64,000 nt of DNA from Owenweeksia hongkongensis DSM 17368 (GTDB lineage: Bacteria > Bacteroidota > Bacteroidia > Flavobacteriales > Schleiferiaceae): the NCBI RefSeq assembly GCF_000236705.1, contig NC_016599.1, forward strand, positions 682,001 to 746,000, in the 5' to 3' direction. The notes below the pieces were generated by a model. The model saw nothing but the letters and a program-made list of their open reading frames with translations. It made no database searches and was not told the DNA's origin. Position numbers and translations under genes: made by a program. Below, in pieces: positions 17,794 to 23,616 of the stretch. The number at the start of each line of letters is the position of its first letter. The first letter of the stretch is position 1.

Positions 17794-17841
17794 GCAAGTC
17801 ATTAATTTATCTTGAAGAATCCCCATCTTGCGCTCTCCTTT

Positions 17842-20775
17842 ATGAAGCCGCAAAATCCCAATACCAAAAACTTAGAAAACGCAGAAAACTACGAGCCCTA
17901 TAGCTCCGGAGAAACTTCCGTGGAAAAGCATTTGGCCAATTACCCTTCTGCCAAAAAGGAACCGGAAAGTGAAGGAAAAACCATTGTGGTTATTGGTCAG
18001 CATCGCTATTATAAGCTTTTTAGCGCCCAGCTCATTCAATGCAAATTGACAAAAGGCGCGCAGCTCAAAAACCCTTTAAATATTACCAACCCCATAGATT
18101 TTATGTGGCAGGCTGAGCGGCCTGAAGAGTTGAAATTTTATGCGGCTATTTCTAAGTTTCAGACTTTTTATGATAAATCCGAAGCCGACAAGGAAGCACT
18201 TCGATTGCTCTTTAAAAATCCTGCTCGCTATCAATTTTATGAGCATGACCATCGCATTTCTGAAAAGGTAAACATCCGCTCTGTTTCTCCGGTAAGTGTT
18301 AGCGTTCCTGCCATTGACTTTCAAATTCGCGTGGAGCGAAATGCCAAAATGTATTCAGTATTTGGCGAACTCACTATTAATGAAATGCCTTGCCTGCTTC
18401 ATGAAATAGAGGTTCGCTTGGGGCAATTCATAACTCGCGGAAGCAGCTGGTATTTGTGTGAAAACCATGAAATACTTGAAGCAATTTCATATTTCAAGAA
18501 GCATGAAAATGAATTTAAGTTAAAAGAGAAATCATTTGAAGCTTTCCAGCGCGATGTACTCTCTGAAATGGAAAATTACATTCCTGTAAACAGGACGTAC
18601 ATAAAATCCATAAGTAAAGAATTTACCCAAGAAGTTAACGCACAGCTCGCCCCGCAAAAACTGATTTACATTGCTGAAGATGGCGATTACATTTCCCTCA
18701 CTCCCGCCATGCGCTACGGCAATCAGGAAGTGGCTTTGCGTTCCAAAAAGCAACTGTATGGCTTGGATACACGAGGTGATACATACTTCATAAAAAGAGA
18801 TGATACGGCCGAAGACCAATTTTCGGCTATGCTCATGCGGCAACACCCGCATTTACCTGAGCAAATGGAAAATGAGCTTCAGTATTATTATTTACATAAA
18901 GCTCATTTTTTGGATGAAAATTGGTTTTTAAAAGCTTTTGATGAATGGCAGCAAAATGATATTCAGGTTTTAGGTTTTAATGAAATAAAAGGAAACAAAT
19001 TCAACCCCAATAAAGCCAAGGTAAATATTGAGGTAACAAGCGGTTTGAATTGGTTTAACACCAATGTGGAAGTGAAGTTTGGTAACCAAAAAGCCTCCTT
19101 AAAGCACCTGAGCAAAGCTGTAAAAAATAAAAGCCGATACGTTCAGCTGGACGATGGTACGATGGGAATAATCCCCGAAGAATGGTTGCTGAAGTTTGCC
19201 AAATATTTCAACTCAGCTAAGATTCAGGAAGAAGCTCTGATTATTCCTAAAATGAGCTTTACGGCAGTAGAAGAAATGTATGACGAGCAATTGCTCGATA
19301 GTCAGGTTTTAACCGAAATTGCAGACTACCGCTCGAAGCTGACGAACTTTAAAGAAGTTGAAACTGTGTCCGCTCCAAAGGATTTGCAAGCATCCCTCCG
19401 CTCTTATCAATTGCAAGGTTTGAGCTGGCTCAATTTTTTGGATGATTTCAATTTTGGTGGCTGCCTGGCTGATGATATGGGCTTGGGAAAAACCATTCAG
19501 GTGATTGCCTTTATACTGCACTTACGTGAAAAACGTAGCCGCAAGACACATTTTTTGGTTTTGCCCACATCCCTCATTCACAATTGGGAAATAGAGCTGG
19601 AGAAGTTTGCCTCTTCCATAAAGTATAATCTTCACCATGGGCCAAACCGCCCCAAAACCACCGACCATTTTTCCGATTATGATTTGGTGATTACCACCTA
19701 TCAAACCTTGGTTTCAGATGTTTCGTTTATCCGAGAATTTACTTTTGGCTATGTGTTTTTGGATGAATCTCAAAATATTAAAAACACAACTTCACAACGC
19801 TACAAAGCAGCGTGCTTATTGCAATCACTCAATCGACTGGTTCTAACAGGAACACCGATTGAGAACAATACTTTTGATCTATATGCGCAGCTGTCTTTTG
19901 CTTGCCCGGGATTATTAGGAACCAAAACCTTTTTTCGCCACACCTATGCCGTGCCTATTGATAAATTCAAAAAGCGGGATAGCGCCAAAGCTCTCCAGGA
20001 TACGGTAAGTCCGTTTATTTTGAGGCGAACTAAAAAGGAAGTAGCGAAGGAATTACCAGAAAAAACCGAAGTGACCATCTTCTGTGAAATGGGGCCCGAG
20101 CAGCGCAGAGTTTATGATGCTTACGAAAAGGAATTCCGCGAATATCTTTCTGCGCATGATGACGAAGAAATTGACAAAAATCCAATGCACGTATTACGTG
20201 GCATCACACGCTTACGTCAAATTTGTAATGCTCCGCAACTAGTAGGCGAAGATAAATTGAAGGGCGAAACGCCCGCCAAAATTGCAATGCTAATGGAACA
20301 GCTACGCAGCATCACCGGAAATCATAAAGTGCTGGTGTTTTCACAATTCGTCTCCATGTTGGATCTCATCCAAAATGAACTGAAAACTGAAAAAATAAAG
20401 CACGTAAGCCTGACGGGAAGCACCAAAAATCGCGGAGCTGTGGTCAAACAATTTCAGGAGAATGAAGATACCCGAGTGTTTTTGATAAGCCTAAAAGCTG
20501 GTGGCACCGGCCTCAACCTTACCGCTGCCGATTATGTTTTCTTAGTTGACCCTTGGTGGAACCCTGCTGTAGAAAATCAAGCCATTGATCGTGTGTATCG
20601 AATAGGCCAGGAAAAACACGTGATTGCCGCCCGTCTTATTTGCCCTGATACAGTTGAGGAAAAAATTCAATTGATGCAGGAAGATAAGTCGCACTTGGCG
20701 AAGAAGTTGGTTGGAGAGAGTAAGCCTTTTTTGAAAGGTATGGGTAAGGAAGCAATGTTGGGGCTGGTGAGGTAG
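17842..20775 (+). CDS. SNF2-family DNA-dependent ATPase/helicase
   Basis: About 977 residues from the ATG at 17842; an upstream TTG at 17812 adds ten residues. The C-terminal half is a complete SWI2/SNF2 motor: DDMGLGKTIQ (motif I), LPTSLIHNWEIELEKF, LDESQNIKN (motif II as DESQ), VLTGTPIENN (III), FSQFVSMLDLI, LKAGGTGLNLTAADYV and QAIDRVYRIGQ (VI). The N-terminal 500 residues are not recognised. Bacterial members remodel protein-DNA or protein-RNA polymerase complexes. Stand-alone gene, with no restriction or defence neighbours. Confidence 0.9.
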   Translation: MKPQNPNTKNLENAENYEPYSSGETSVEKHLANYPSAKKEPESEGKTIVVIGQHRYYKLFSAQLIQCKLTKGAQLKNPLNITNPIDFMWQAERPEELKFYAAISKFQTFYDKSEADKEALRLLFKNPARYQFYEHDHRISEKVNIRSVSPVSVSVPAIDFQIRVERNAKMYSVFGELTINEMPCLLHEIEVRLGQFITRGSSWYLCENHEILEAISYFKKHENEFKLKEKSFEAFQRDVLSEMENYIPVNRTYIKSISKEFTQEVNAQLAPQKLIYIAEDGDYISLTPAMRYGNQEVALRSKKQLYGLDTRGDTYFIKRDDTAEDQFSAMLMRQHPHLPEQMENELQYYYLHKAHFLDENWFLKAFDEWQQNDIQVLGFNEIKGNKFNPNKAKVNIEVTSGLNWFNTNVEVKFGNQKASLKHLSKAVKNKSRYVQLDDGTMGIIPEEWLLKFAKYFNSAKIQEEALIIPKMSFTAVEEMYDEQLLDSQVLTEIADYRSKLTNFKEVETVSAPKDLQASLRSYQLQGLSWLNFLDDFNFGGCLADDMGLGKTIQVIAFILHLREKRSRKTHFLVLPTSLIHNWEIELEKFASSIKYNLHHGPNRPKTTDHFSDYDLVITTYQTLVSDVSFIREFTFGYVFLDESQNIKNTTSQRYKAACLLQSLNRLVLTGTPIENNTFDLYAQLSFACPGLLGTKTFFRHTYAVPIDKFKKRDSAKALQDTVSPFILRRTKKEVAKELPEKTEVTIFCEMGPEQRRVYDAYEKEFREYLSAHDDEEIDKNPMHVLRGITRLRQICNAPQLVGEDKLKGETPAKIAMLMEQLRSITGNHKVLVFSQFVSMLDLIQNELKTEKIKHVSLTGSTKNRGAVVKQFQENEDTRVFLISLKAGGTGLNLTAADYVFLVDPWWNPAVENQAIDRVYRIGQEKHVIAARLICPDTVEEKIQLMQEDKSHLAKKLVGESKPFLKGMGKEAMLGLVR

Positions 20776-20979
20776 TACCACCCCTGGCCCCTCCTTTCTG
20801 GAGGGGAAATCAGATCAACTTGATTCGAAATAAAATTAAAATTTCAGGATTCAATTACATAAGAAGTCGCCACTCGTAAGTTGTGTTACTGCCAATAGGC
20901 AATCTGCTTAAATTTTTCCAGCAACTTTTAGAAAATCACAGGCCATCTCCCCTCCTTTGAGGAGGGGCTGGGGTGGTAC
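20775..20979. repeat. Pair of inverted palindromic repeats flanking 140 bp
   Basis: The unit begins GTACCACCCC at 20775 and ends with its exact complement GGGGTGGTAC at 20970-20979. Next to each end is a hairpin: CCCCTCC-TTTCT-GGAGGGG at 20788-20806 and CCCCTCC-TTTGA-GGAGGGG at 20949-20967. The two halves are inverted copies, like a REP doublet. The right half encodes the last residues of the DUF559 gene; the left half begins in the stop codon of the SNF2 gene. No transposase is present. Confidence 0.8.
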
Positions 20980-21328
20980 TAAACTCCGCGCGAATTGCCT
21001 CAAGTACCATCCCAAGCTGGGATCGAACTGACTCATTGAGCACTCGCAAAACCTTAATTCCAATACTATTCAAATAGGCATCTCGCTTAGCATCAGCAAT
21101 CTGTACAGACTCGTTTCGGTGATAACCGCCATCCACTTCTATTACGAGCTTTTCGGAAGGACAATAAAAATCGACAATGTAATTAGCAATGCTATGCTGA
21201 CGCCTGAATTTACGCCCATCGAGCTGTGAACCTTTTAAAGCTTTCCATAAACGTGCTTCTGAAATTGTGAGATTGGATCGTAAATCACGTCTATATTTCT
21301 TGAGATATTTTCGGTTGTGGAGAGGCAT
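20936..21328 (-). CDS. DUF559 (Vsr/restriction-endonuclease fold) protein
   Basis: A 130-residue protein. The N-terminal part (RKYLKKYRRDLRSNLTISEARLWKALKG) and the nuclease-like core (KFRRQHSIANYIVDFYCPSEKLVIEVDGGYH...RDAYLNSIGIKVLRV) match DUF559, which has a very-short-patch-repair-like fold with Asp/Glu acids in the D...EVDG core. The final TTPAPPQRRGDGL is read entirely from the palindromic repeat, so the C-terminus is repeat-derived and the ancestral stop is probably lost. Likely cytoplasmic DNA-acting enzyme; activity unproven. Confidence 0.85.
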   Translation of the reverse strand: MPLHNRKYLKKYRRDLRSNLTISEARLWKALKGSQLDGRKFRRQHSIANYIVDFYCPSEKLVIEVDGGYHRNESVQIADAKRDAYLNSIGIKVLRVLNESVRSQLGMVLEAIRAEFSTTPAPPQRRGDGL

Positions 21329-21426: not shown

Positions 21427-23556
21427 ATGTCCTCTACCCTTATTCCTATTATTTCCAAGTCGCTTGGCATCAATGCCGGACAAATTCAAAACACTATAAA
21501 CCTACTGAACGAAGGTGCTACCGTGCCTTTTATTTCGCGTTACCGCAAAGAAGCCACAGGTAGTTTAGATGAAGTTCAGATTGGTAACATTCAGGAGGAA
21601 TGGAAAAAATTGCAGGAGCTGATAAAAAGGCGTGAGTTCATTTTAGAAAGTATAAAAGGTCAAGATTTACTAACGCCTGAGTTAGAGTCTAAAATCAACA
21701 GCTGCTGGAATACAACCGAACTGGAAGACCTTTACCTTCCGTATAAGCCTAAGCGAAAAACGAAAGCTTCTGTAGCTCGTGAAAAAGGTTTAGAACCTTT
21801 GGCGGGAACACTGATGAAGCAGGAGATCACTGATGTGGAAGGCTTTGCAATGCGTTTTGTAAAAGGTGAAGTTACCGATGTGGAAGATGCCCTTTCTGGT
21901 GCTCGTGACATAATTGCCGAATGGGTAAATGAAAGAGCTTTCGCCAGAAATAAGGTTCGCCAGCTATTTAGCCGAAAGGCTGAGATAAGTGCCAAAGTGG
22001 TAAAGTCAAAAGCTGATGAGGCTGAGAAATATCGCGACTACTTTGATTTTGCGGAACCTTTGAAACGCTGCCCTAGCCACCGTATGTTGGCCATAAGACG
22101 TGCCGAAGCTGAAGGTTTGCTTCGTGTGCATATTCTCCTGGATGAGGATGAAGCTTTGGATATACTCGACAATATTTTTGTAAAAGGTAGAAACGAGGCT
22201 TCTGAACAAGTGCAGATTGCTGTGAAAGATGCCTACAAGCGACTACTTGCTCCTTCGCTGGAAACAGAATTTAAAAACAGCTCAAAGGAAAAAGCGGATG
22301 ATGAAGCGATAAAGGTTTTTGCCGAAAACCTCCGTCAGCTATTGATGGCTCCTCCCCTAGGTCCCAAGAGGGTTTTGGCTATCGACCCGGGTTTTAGGAC
22401 AGGCTGTAAAGTGGTGTGCCTGGATGAACAAGGCGGACTGCTGAGCAATGAAAACATATACCCTCACCCACCGCAATCGGAGAGCGGACAGGCAGCTGCT
22501 AAACTCAGCCGATTGATGGAGTCATATAAACTGGAAGCTATTGCTATTGGCAATGGTACTGCTGGTCGAGAAACTGAGGATTTTATTCAACGAAAAATGC
22601 ATTTGCCGAAAGGCACAGAAGTGTACGTGGTGAATGAAGCAGGGGCATCGATTTACTCAGCCAGTAAGGTGGCGCGTGAGGAATTTCCAACCTATGATGT
22701 AACGGTGCGTGGTGCGGTTTCTATTGGTCGCAGACTGATGGATCCTTTGGCCGAACTGGTAAAGATTGATCCGAAAAGTATCGGTGTGGGACAATATCAG
22801 CATGATGTGGATCAAAATAAGCTGAAGCAAAGTTTGGACAATGTGGTGGAAAGTACGGTGAACCAAGTTGGCGTAAACCTAAATACCGCCAGCAAGCATT
22901 TGCTTACTTATGTTTCGGGTCTGGGCCCAAAGTTGGCCGAAAACATAGTAAAACATCGCGATGAAAACGGAGCTTTTACTTCTCGAAAAGAATTGAAAAA
23001 AGTCGCAGGTCTTGGCCCAAAAGCTTTTGAGCAGAGTACAGGTTTTTTACGAATAGCTAACGGTGACAATCCTTTGGACAATTCTGCTGTACACCCTGAA
23101 AGCTATAGTATTGTTGAAAAAATGGCGAAAGATATGGGGCGCCAAGTAAGCTCTATGATTGGTGCTACCAAAAAGCTTGAGGAAATTGATTTATCGAAAT
23201 ACATCACAAAAGATGTTGGGCTTCCTACCCTGAAAGACATTATTTCTGAACTGGGGAAAGTAGGCCGTGACCCGCGTGGTAAAACAGAAGTTTTCTCTTT
23301 TGATCCAAACATTAGGAAAATGGAAGATCTGCGCGAAGGCATGATTTTACAAGGTTTGGTGAGTAATATTACCAAGTTTGGCGCCTTTGTGGATATAGGC
23401 GTAAAGCAAGATGGACTGGTTCATATTTCGCAGCTAGCCAACAAGTTTGTGAGTGACCCCAATGGAATAGTAAGGCTTCAGCAACAGGTTACCGTTAAGG
23501 TAACGGAAGTAGATATTCCAAGGAAAAGAATACAGCTGAGTATGAAGGATGTGTAG
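21427..23556 (+). CDS. Tex-family RNA-binding protein
   Basis: 709 residues in the classical Tex order: N-terminal helical domain, YqgF-like RNase H fold (VLAIDPGFRTGCKVVCLD), helix-hairpin-helix pair (GLGPKLAENIVKHRDENGAF and VAGLGPKAFEQ), and a C-terminal S1 domain (EGMILQGLVSNITKFGAFVDIGVKQDGLVHISQLA). Tex binds nucleic acid and influences transcription and RNA decay. Length and motifs are complete. ATG at 21427 fits the conserved N-terminus. Confidence 0.95.
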   Translation: MSSTLIPIISKSLGINAGQIQNTINLLNEGATVPFISRYRKEATGSLDEVQIGNIQEEWKKLQELIKRREFILESIKGQDLLTPELESKINSCWNTTELEDLYLPYKPKRKTKASVAREKGLEPLAGTLMKQEITDVEGFAMRFVKGEVTDVEDALSGARDIIAEWVNERAFARNKVRQLFSRKAEISAKVVKSKADEAEKYRDYFDFAEPLKRCPSHRMLAIRRAEAEGLLRVHILLDEDEALDILDNIFVKGRNEASEQVQIAVKDAYKRLLAPSLETEFKNSSKEKADDEAIKVFAENLRQLLMAPPLGPKRVLAIDPGFRTGCKVVCLDEQGGLLSNENIYPHPPQSESGQAAAKLSRLMESYKLEAIAIGNGTAGRETEDFIQRKMHLPKGTEVYVVNEAGASIYSASKVAREEFPTYDVTVRGAVSIGRRLMDPLAELVKIDPKSIGVGQYQHDVDQNKLKQSLDNVVESTVNQVGVNLNTASKHLLTYVSGLGPKLAENIVKHRDENGAFTSRKELKKVAGLGPKAFEQSTGFLRIANGDNPLDNSAVHPESYSIVEKMAKDMGRQVSSMIGATKKLEEIDLSKYITKDVGLPTLKDIISELGKVGRDPRGKTEVFSFDPNIRKMEDLREGMILQGLVSNITKFGAFVDIGVKQDGLVHISQLANKFVSDPNGIVRLQQQVTVKVTEVDIPRKRIQLSMKDV

Positions 23557-23568
23557 ATTTGTTGAAAA

Positions 23569-23616
23569 GTGGTTTTGACTTGTGGTTTTGACTTGTGATT
23601 TTGACTTGTGATTTTG
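23569..23616. repeat. 13-bp tandem repeat, about 3.7 copies
   Basis: Consecutive units GTGGTTTTGACTT, GTGGTTTTGACTT, GTGATTTTGACTT and the partial GTGATTTTG lie 12 bp after the tex stop codon. No spacers separate the units, so it is a short tandem repeat and not a CRISPR array. Confidence 0.85.

Follow-up and report, generated by a model that had tools for sequence, protein, structure and literature searches.

The gene for a DUF559 nuclease (family PF04480) in Owenweeksia hongkongensis DSM 17368 ends inside an inverted doublet of palindromes that resemble repetitive extragenic palindromes (REPs), which are common bacterial repeats. It lies in the window, i.e. the whole stretch of 64,000 nucleotides analysed here (contig NC_016599.1, positions 682,001 to 746,000), taken from a complete 4.0-Mb contig. 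DUF559 genes are associated with a palindrome type common across phyla, and genes and palindromes are often inserted jointly and in frame into host genes; at the two such sites compared among relatives, in LeuRS and in a UvrD-type helicase, empty, solo-palindrome or decayed alleles occur. We consider it likely, with a probability of roughly two in three, that the DUF559 gene provides the coding part at the centre of a selfish element, small and palindrome-bounded, which is copied in a homing-like manner, bare REPs being its non-autonomous or remnant forms. It also seems probable, if with somewhat less assurance, that REP-bounded DUF559 cassettes constitute an undescribed class of mobile elements in many phyla, whose nuclease copies itself between palindromes, seeds non-autonomous REPs and persists in frame and unspliced in loops of essential enzymes.

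PF04480 is present in 138 of 247 Bacteroidota genomes. Most of the 30 best Bacteroidota loci carry hairpins of the kind CCCTCTCCC-nnn-GGGAGAGGG, next to a foot like CCTCACCCC. Sixty further loci, all with E values of about 1e-28 or better, were chosen regardless of their flanks (the first 40 listed rows without a locus, the own genome being skipped, together with 20 consecutive rows near the end). A hairpin with pyrimidine arms lies within 250 bp in 50 of them, and any hairpin, at a relaxed threshold, in 57. At the strict threshold, hairpins were detected at 39 of the 60 loci, on both sides in 18, and their density amounts to 2.16/kb near the gene versus 0.15/kb far from it.

For comparison with loci of Y1_Tnp transposases a single length filter was applied, which reduced the 60 loci to 56 (four clipped ones dropped), another DUF559 set from 32 to 29 (three clipped) and the Y1_Tnp set from 32 to 27 (five short). 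Pyrimidine-armed hairpins within 250 bp accompany 48/56 and 24/29 DUF559 genes, as against 0/27 Y1_Tnp genes and 4/112 distant windows of the same loci. Hairpins of any kind, at the relaxed threshold, are found at 54/56, 27/29, 15/27 and 21/112, respectively; hairpins at Y1 loci are therefore of other kinds. The enrichment beside DUF559 genes that the preliminary description had proposed to look for is thus present.

The same tendency is seen at the level of whole genomes, all 247 of which were scanned. Where a genome has a strong DUF559 hit (E 1e-15 or better), at least five copies of CCCTYYYCN(1-9)GRRRAGGG were counted in 47 of 102 cases, compared with 17 of 145 among the others (odds ratio (OR) 6.4, p 1.7e-9); after removal of family f18 the proportions are 46/98 and 16/95 (OR 4.4). 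Since the genomes are related, p values at this level serve as a guide only.

A scan of genome contigs, of which the best 80 of at least 570 matches were retained as 80 named loci, extends the association to other phyla. Four of the five loci from which its query was derived were REP-flanked, and only the best matches were retained, so this set is biased; the 60 Bacteroidota loci chosen blind to flanks correct for that bias. The 80 loci come from Bacteroidota, Pseudomonadota, Cyanobacteriota, Chloroflexota, Thermodesulfobacteriota, Myxococcota, Verrucomicrobiota, Ignavibacteriota and others. Hairpin density reaches 4.0 and 3.4/kb in the flanking 200 bp versus 0.15-0.31/kb at a distance of 1-4 kb. 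A hairpin within 400 bp was found at 58/80 loci and hairpins on both sides at 34/80, compared with 14% and 0.6% of 2,049 control windows. When open reading frames (ORFs) were scored, 59 DUF559 ORFs had hairpins upstream in 27 cases, downstream in 17 and on both sides in 12, the corresponding numbers for 179 other ORFs being 13, 22 and 1. Inspected by eye, foot and hairpin obey a single grammar, CCTCACCCCnn-CCCCTCTCCC..GGGAGAGGGG, in relatives of Gallionella, Anaerolineae, Cyanobacteria and Bacteroidota. The pairing that had been suspected in Bacteroidota is therefore supported, and it extends beyond that phylum.

Many DUF559 domains are situated inside long reading frames of other proteins. 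This holds for 12 of the 30 best Bacteroidota loci (frame >600 aa), 18 of the 80 named loci (>500 aa) and 11 of the 60 further loci (>450 aa), pyrimidine-armed palindromes being present in all eleven of the latter. A Pfam scan of 28 long DUF559 frames detected host domains in 27, L073 having none. DUF559 is flanked by, or splits, host domains in leucyl- (LeuRS; L031, L115, L135), isoleucyl- (IleRS; L094) and methionyl-tRNA synthetases (MetRS; L103, L131), in HrpA (L066) and UvrD-type helicases (L057, L125), and in restriction-modification proteins, namely HsdR (L035, L037, L068), MmeI (L113) and type ISP (L029). Inserts in MetH (L038, L054, L095, L110, L126) are always located between the B12-binding_2 and B12-binding domains. 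A host domain at one side only was observed in HsdM (L047, L074), Eco57I/MmeI-type (L082, L120) and type ISP (L107) proteins and in methylases (L030, L092), as well as in a PurL-type protein, where DUF559 forms a C-terminal extension (L042). In several hosts the peptides bordering DUF559 (PSPQPSPSGRG, PSPLPLGEDLGEG) are encoded by the palindromes, as read by eye. No intein domain (Hint-type, self-splicing) was detected in the 28 host ORFs at Pfam E values of 1e-5 or 1e-6, and the insert would therefore stay in the host protein.

The LeuRS site was compared in 40 relatives of genome G103, which yielded 30 loci and 29 readable junctions (L165 did not yield both anchors). Three junctions are filled (G103, G268, G247), one holds a solo REP, one a different palindrome, and 24 are short. 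The solo REP, in G274, a member of the family of the window genome, is in frame at the same site, while relatives are empty. In G247 (L140) the DUF559 domain has decayed: its catalytic residues are changed, though it is still in frame, and no obvious palindromes are seen at the ends shown. The insert in G250 (L147), also in frame, derives from a different palindrome (..CGTCATTCCGAACTTAATTCGGAATCC..) in the same loop, which might thus attract insertions in general. Because G103 consists of a single contig and has no other strong LeuRS among the matches listed, the insert-bearing LeuRS is presumably a working enzyme. As a separate observation, LeuRS proteins of L034, L115 and L031 contain more peptides of seemingly REP-encoded type (SSPSGRLGG, SSPLGRSGG, PPSEGLGK) elsewhere in their sequences.

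A second site is provided by a UvrD-type helicase ("AddA-like" by eye) in 81 Flavobacterium genomes, the genus being inferred from the position of the group. Among the matches listed, DUF559 occurs in G218, G313, G352 and G341; frames with DUF559 measure 1240-1286 aa, versus about 1045-1104 aa in most others listed. Anchors were matched at 5 of 30 loci, giving two filled and three unfilled alleles. Borders of the insert coincide with palindrome feet (TTCCT|CCCCCCAGCCCCCTCCGAAGGAGGGGG...TCCCTCCCCTTCGGGGAGGGTTGGGGAGGGG|AATGCC). Unfilled G372 retains an eroded palindrome scar, and G316 and G310 are clean. The flanks of unfilled G316 are 90.5 and 92.5% identical to those of filled G313 at nucleotide level, those of filled G218 88.8 and 88.5%; presence of the cassette therefore does not track flank similarity. 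At both sites gene and repeat thus co-vary between genera and species, with cassettes present or absent and a solo palindrome or a scar in a relative. Since neither a lack of enrichment nor a lack of co-variation was found, the suggestion that the DUF559 gene moves with such palindromes is well supported; that its protein also acts on them, by cleavage, is a prediction.

As a possible pair of recently separated copies, the DUF559 copies on plasmids of Synechocystis sp. B12 were considered and rejected: they share 75% identity over 162 bp and are not recent. One of them is bordered by outward REPs.

Residues E24, D53, E64, D66 and H70 show no variation in 15 DUF559 sequences and little or none in a set of 50, in solitary as well as in-frame copies. 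A profile search of PDB returned 3hrl (DUF559-like) first, followed by the catalytic domain of I-Bth0305I (3r3p, E 6e-7). Foldseek gave the same order (3r3p, E 8.5e-5), with weaker matches to AbaSI (2.2e-3) and Vsr (1vsr, 1.6e-2). By fold, sequence and active-site residues, DUF559 is a predicted endonuclease of the Vsr/EDxHD fold. Similar assignments are already found in excerpts of two papers, one of which places a DUF559 gene in the EDxHD homing family (PMC9403480) and the other calls a DUF559 protein Vsr-like (PMC12907096). According to the same excerpts, this Caulobacter protein, VsrA, causes an SOS response in cells without a cytosine methylase (PMC12907096), as would be expected if an enzyme of this kind damaged DNA in the living cell. 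A further paper mentions, in part of its text, hotspot segments that contain DUF559 together with a transposase (PMC12308824).

In a phylogenetic tree of low resolution (57 open branches among 109 inner ones), copies from LeuRS, IleRS, MetRS, MetH, UvrD-type and PurL-type hosts fall into one group of 19 rows (support 90, drawn open). LeuRS copies are interleaved there with UvrD-type and PurL-type ones, and MetH copies with those of IleRS and MetRS. The group also includes four solitary copies, one being the second DUF559 gene of the window genome. Restriction-modification and HrpA copies are placed outside this group. The host label has to change no fewer than 21 times. With the caveat that most branches are weak, this agrees better with repeated relocation among host genes than with a single inherited fusion.

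On these grounds, the full element would consist of REP, DUF559 gene and REP, at times with a doublet on each side. Its ends would be formed by REP-like palindromes with a CACCCC/CCTCACCCC foot and a hairpin CCCTCTCCC..GGGAGAGGG or variants thereof, and solo REPs and inverted doublets, that of the window included, would represent non-autonomous or remnant forms, possibly mobilised in trans. The nuclease might cut at the palindrome or at the empty target, and repair of the break might then copy the palindrome-bounded cassette into the gap. Inserts that keep the frame would survive even in essential genes as extra domains, probably without splicing in the cell. It is in the distribution of filled and empty sites that this element would resemble homing endonuclease genes, and its putative copying may in that sense be termed homing-like.

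Several observations weigh against this interpretation. Even with the relaxed threshold, which added five loci to give 63/80, no hairpin was found inside a distance of about 220 bp at 17 of the 80 named loci, although some of these lie on short contigs. Fourteen of these 17 belong to one poorly resolved group of 29 rows, mostly Bacteroidota, which has flanked members too, and a supported clade of four (L062, L081, L087, L089; relatives of Parabacteroides and Paludibacter) has no palindromes at all; this clade may have another role. The contrast between DUF559 and other ORFs is modest downstream (p 0.0045). The nearest hairpin points outward in 32 cases, inward in 35 and neither or both ways in 21, so that a simple outward REP-gene-REP unit does not fit all loci. 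Among informative families, 14 of 19 follow the genome-level trend and 5 of 19 the opposite one, and 17 genomes have at least five palindromes without a strong DUF559 hit. Palindromes were found only at the 3' side of the window gene and none 5' of it. No target duplication is evident at the UvrD-type insert in the five alleles compared. Inserts of the two closest filled UvrD-type alleles share 86% of nucleotides versus about 89% for their flanks; being no more alike than the flanks, they give no sign of very recent transfer.

Ordinary REPs might be moved by a REP-associated tyrosine transposase (RAYT) or Y1 transposase elsewhere in the genome, DUF559 being a bystander in REP-rich spots. RAYTs are known partners of REPs, as stated in excerpts of PMC3733652, the doublet architecture resembles bacterial interspersed mosaic elements (BIMEs) and REPINs, and the window genome itself has three Y1_Tnp genes. 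However, one of these is accompanied by unrelated hairpins only and two by none at the threshold used. Moreover, the palindrome type is found near none of the 27 Y1 loci, taken by best score and in most cases singly from a genome, versus 72/85 DUF559 loci. Among DUF559-positive genomes, palindrome counts are no higher with Y1 than without it (OR 1.5, p 0.59), and six genomes with DUF559 and without Y1 have at least five palindromes; the effect of DUF559 amounts to OR 7.3 in genomes with Y1 and OR 4.1 (p 0.06) in those without it. A RAYT as mobiliser of these palindromes is thus rejected by comparisons of both loci and genomes; it is strongly disfavoured, and we regard the bystander explanation as highly improbable. 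Alternatively, DUF559 could be a structure-specific or repair nuclease of the host, similar to Vsr, that trims or polices palindromes, the repeats being regulatory, e.g. terminators. The Vsr-type fold, the functional link of Caulobacter VsrA to cytosine methylation (excerpts of PMC12907096) and the position of the window doublet between convergent genes agree with this. Yet it explains neither why hairpins are as frequent at the 5' as at the 3' side, nor the in-frame palindrome cassettes in LeuRS, MetH and UvrD-type proteins, nor presence and absence at single sites among relatives, and we find it quite unlikely.

Spread might also be passive, with DUF559 genes shuffled between REPs by RecA recombination and the nuclease serving another role, e.g. 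in defence. Many hosts are indeed restriction-modification genes, REP scars fit recombination between repeats, and evidence of a recent active jump is lacking. On the other hand, there is no defence logic in housekeeping hosts such as LeuRS, MetH, MetRS and IleRS; specific pairing of DUF559 with palindromes across phyla and the fold match to a homing endonuclease also argue against such a process, which appears unlikely to us. The preferred interpretation remains that of a palindrome-bounded selfish element with DUF559 as its coding core.

The proposed element shares with REPtrons a dedicated nuclease gene bordered by REPs, inverted doublets (and singles) beside the enzyme gene, gene-less copies elsewhere and some intragenic REPs. 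In contrast to REPtrons, its enzyme is a DUF559 protein of the Vsr/EDxHD fold and no RAYT transposase of the HUH/Y1 kind, and the whole gene can be inserted in frame in housekeeping genes. The parallel to RAYTs and REPs drawn in the preliminary description hence applies to the architecture and fails for the enzyme. GTAG or CGTC tags are absent, by eye, at the loci shown, whose feet are GTACCACCCC, GTCCACC and CCTCACCCC. CGTC-tagged REPs are reported without a dedicated transposase (excerpts of PMC3733652); the gap left by their missing enzyme is of the same kind as that posed by the present palindromes. Rickettsia palindromic elements (RPEs) are, by their description in part of PMC10969869, similar in that palindromes are read in frame in protein genes. 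CGTC REPs and probably RPEs differ from our palindromes in tag and stem, as judged by eye, and no nuclease partner is mentioned for them in the excerpts at hand.

With I-Bth0305I, an EDxHD homing endonuclease, DUF559 proteins share the nearest fold and sequence outside DUF559 in PDB, as well as the location of a nuclease gene in conserved genes. I-Bth0305I is described, in a review, among group I intron endonucleases with additional DNA-binding parts, whereas DUF559 is a bare domain bounded by REPs and without an intein domain. Inteins with homing endonucleases likewise place a nuclease domain in frame in essential genes and are patchy among relatives; they differ in that no splicing domain is listed in the 28 host ORFs scanned. 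The element as proposed would operate in the manner of both REPtrons and homing endonuclease genes, yet it is classed as neither, a RAYT and a GTAG tag having been looked for and not found. No description of DUF559-REP pairing or of in-frame cassettes was found in the literature searched, which comprised open-licence papers.

If our interpretation is true, REP palindromes would have a second, transposase-free origin. A widespread nuclease family of unknown function is tied here to one type of palindrome, so that the maker of the repeats becomes directly testable. An apparently selfish nuclease present as an extra domain in essential enzymes (LeuRS) points to a route to new protein domains, and DUF559 "fusion" proteins, restriction enzymes included, may be insertions and not functional fusions.

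In the window, the inverted doublet spans 20775-20979, each half consisting of a foot and a GC-rich hairpin (Table 1). Its outer arms (18 nt) are complementary to 89%. Folding of the doublet (209 nt) as single-stranded DNA yields -37.6 kcal/mol versus -20.8 +/- 3.3 for shuffled sequences (z -5.2; 0/200 equally good). The left foot and the TAG stop of the SNF2 helicase gene overlap by one base, with which the stop ends and the foot begins.

Table 1. Features of the doublet, the DUF559 gene and its neighbours (window positions)
Feature	Position	Strand	Remarks
SNF2 helicase gene, upstream neighbour	17812..20775	+	stop codon touches left REP foot
Left REP half	20775..20806	+	foot GTACCACCCCTGG and hairpin CCCCTCCTTTCTGGAGGGG, i.e. 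CCCCTCC-TTTCT-GGAGGGG
Spacer between doublet hairpins, 142 bp	20807..20948	.	final 13 bp are stop and terminal codons of DUF559 gene
DUF559 nuclease gene, 130 aa, PF04480	20936..21328	-	E24, D53, E64, D66, H70 kept
DUF559 last 13 codons	20939..20977	-	outside Pfam domain; 10 wholly or partly from right REP half
Right REP half, inverted	20949..20979	-	hairpin CCCCTCCTTTGAGGAGGGG and foot CTGGGGTGGTAC
Tex (YqgF/HHH/S1) gene, neighbour	21427..23556	+	

The DUF559 ORF matches PF04480 over residues 8-115 (E 4e-33; 113.8 bits versus a gathering cut-off of 20.6), the only further Pfam match being a sub-threshold one to MTES_1575. Its C-terminus reads ..STTPAPPQRRGDGL. A doublet bracketing about 140 bp, with 13 residues of the protein read from one half, had been described before. 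The doublet is real; its right half contains nine of the 13 terminal codons entirely and a tenth in part, and the last three are found just past the hairpin. Confidence in the structural model is lowest for the terminal ten residues (predicted local distance difference test score (pLDDT) 68 versus 90.4 overall). The window copy is best read as an element whose REP doublet remains at the 3' side only. The Tex/SNF2 locus of 40 relatives was rejected as an empty site for this copy, since gene order is unconserved; for the same reason the 13 other Tex genes shown from relatives, none of which has a DUF559 ORF upstream by eye, give absence only.

All three DUF559 genes of the window genome, of which one is interrupted by a frameshift, adjoin such palindromes. 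The pattern of family A, CCCCTCCTTTNNGGAGGGG, matches the 4.0 Mb five times at four sites with up to two mismatches, two of these sites being the window doublet (reversed control, 0). Similar doublets of family B (GTCCACCTCCG..CACCTCCGCCAGCGGAGGA / TCCTCCGCTGGCGGAGGTG..CGGAGGTGGAC) flank gene 2 (L002) on both sides, their halves being 98% and 88% alike, and one family B doublet adjoins gene 3 (L003). Family B has 17 matches genome-wide versus 1 in the control. The two families combined yield 13 clusters in 4 Mb, and the DUF559 loci account for three of them. A chance estimate for this genome (3/3 genes; 0/200,000 draws) is circular and not independent because both families had initially been recognised next to DUF559 genes. 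Of the 11 other palindrome loci inspected, four have a solo REP within a long open frame; judged from the frames themselves, these encode a 2-hydroxyacid dehydrogenase, HsdM, an Eco57I-type protein and methylmalonyl-CoA mutase.

Another DUF559 gene, L289 (G122), belongs to another family of the class, and its hairpin core CCTCCGCTGGCGGAGG equals the core of family B. One Y1_Tnp gene of the window genome (L026) is flanked by unrelated hairpins, CGACCCCGCTGGGGTCG and similar ones, and possibly represents a true RAYT-REP pair. Directly downstream of tex, the window contains a tandem repeat (23569-23616) with 3.7 copies of the 13-bp unit GTGATTTTGACTT.

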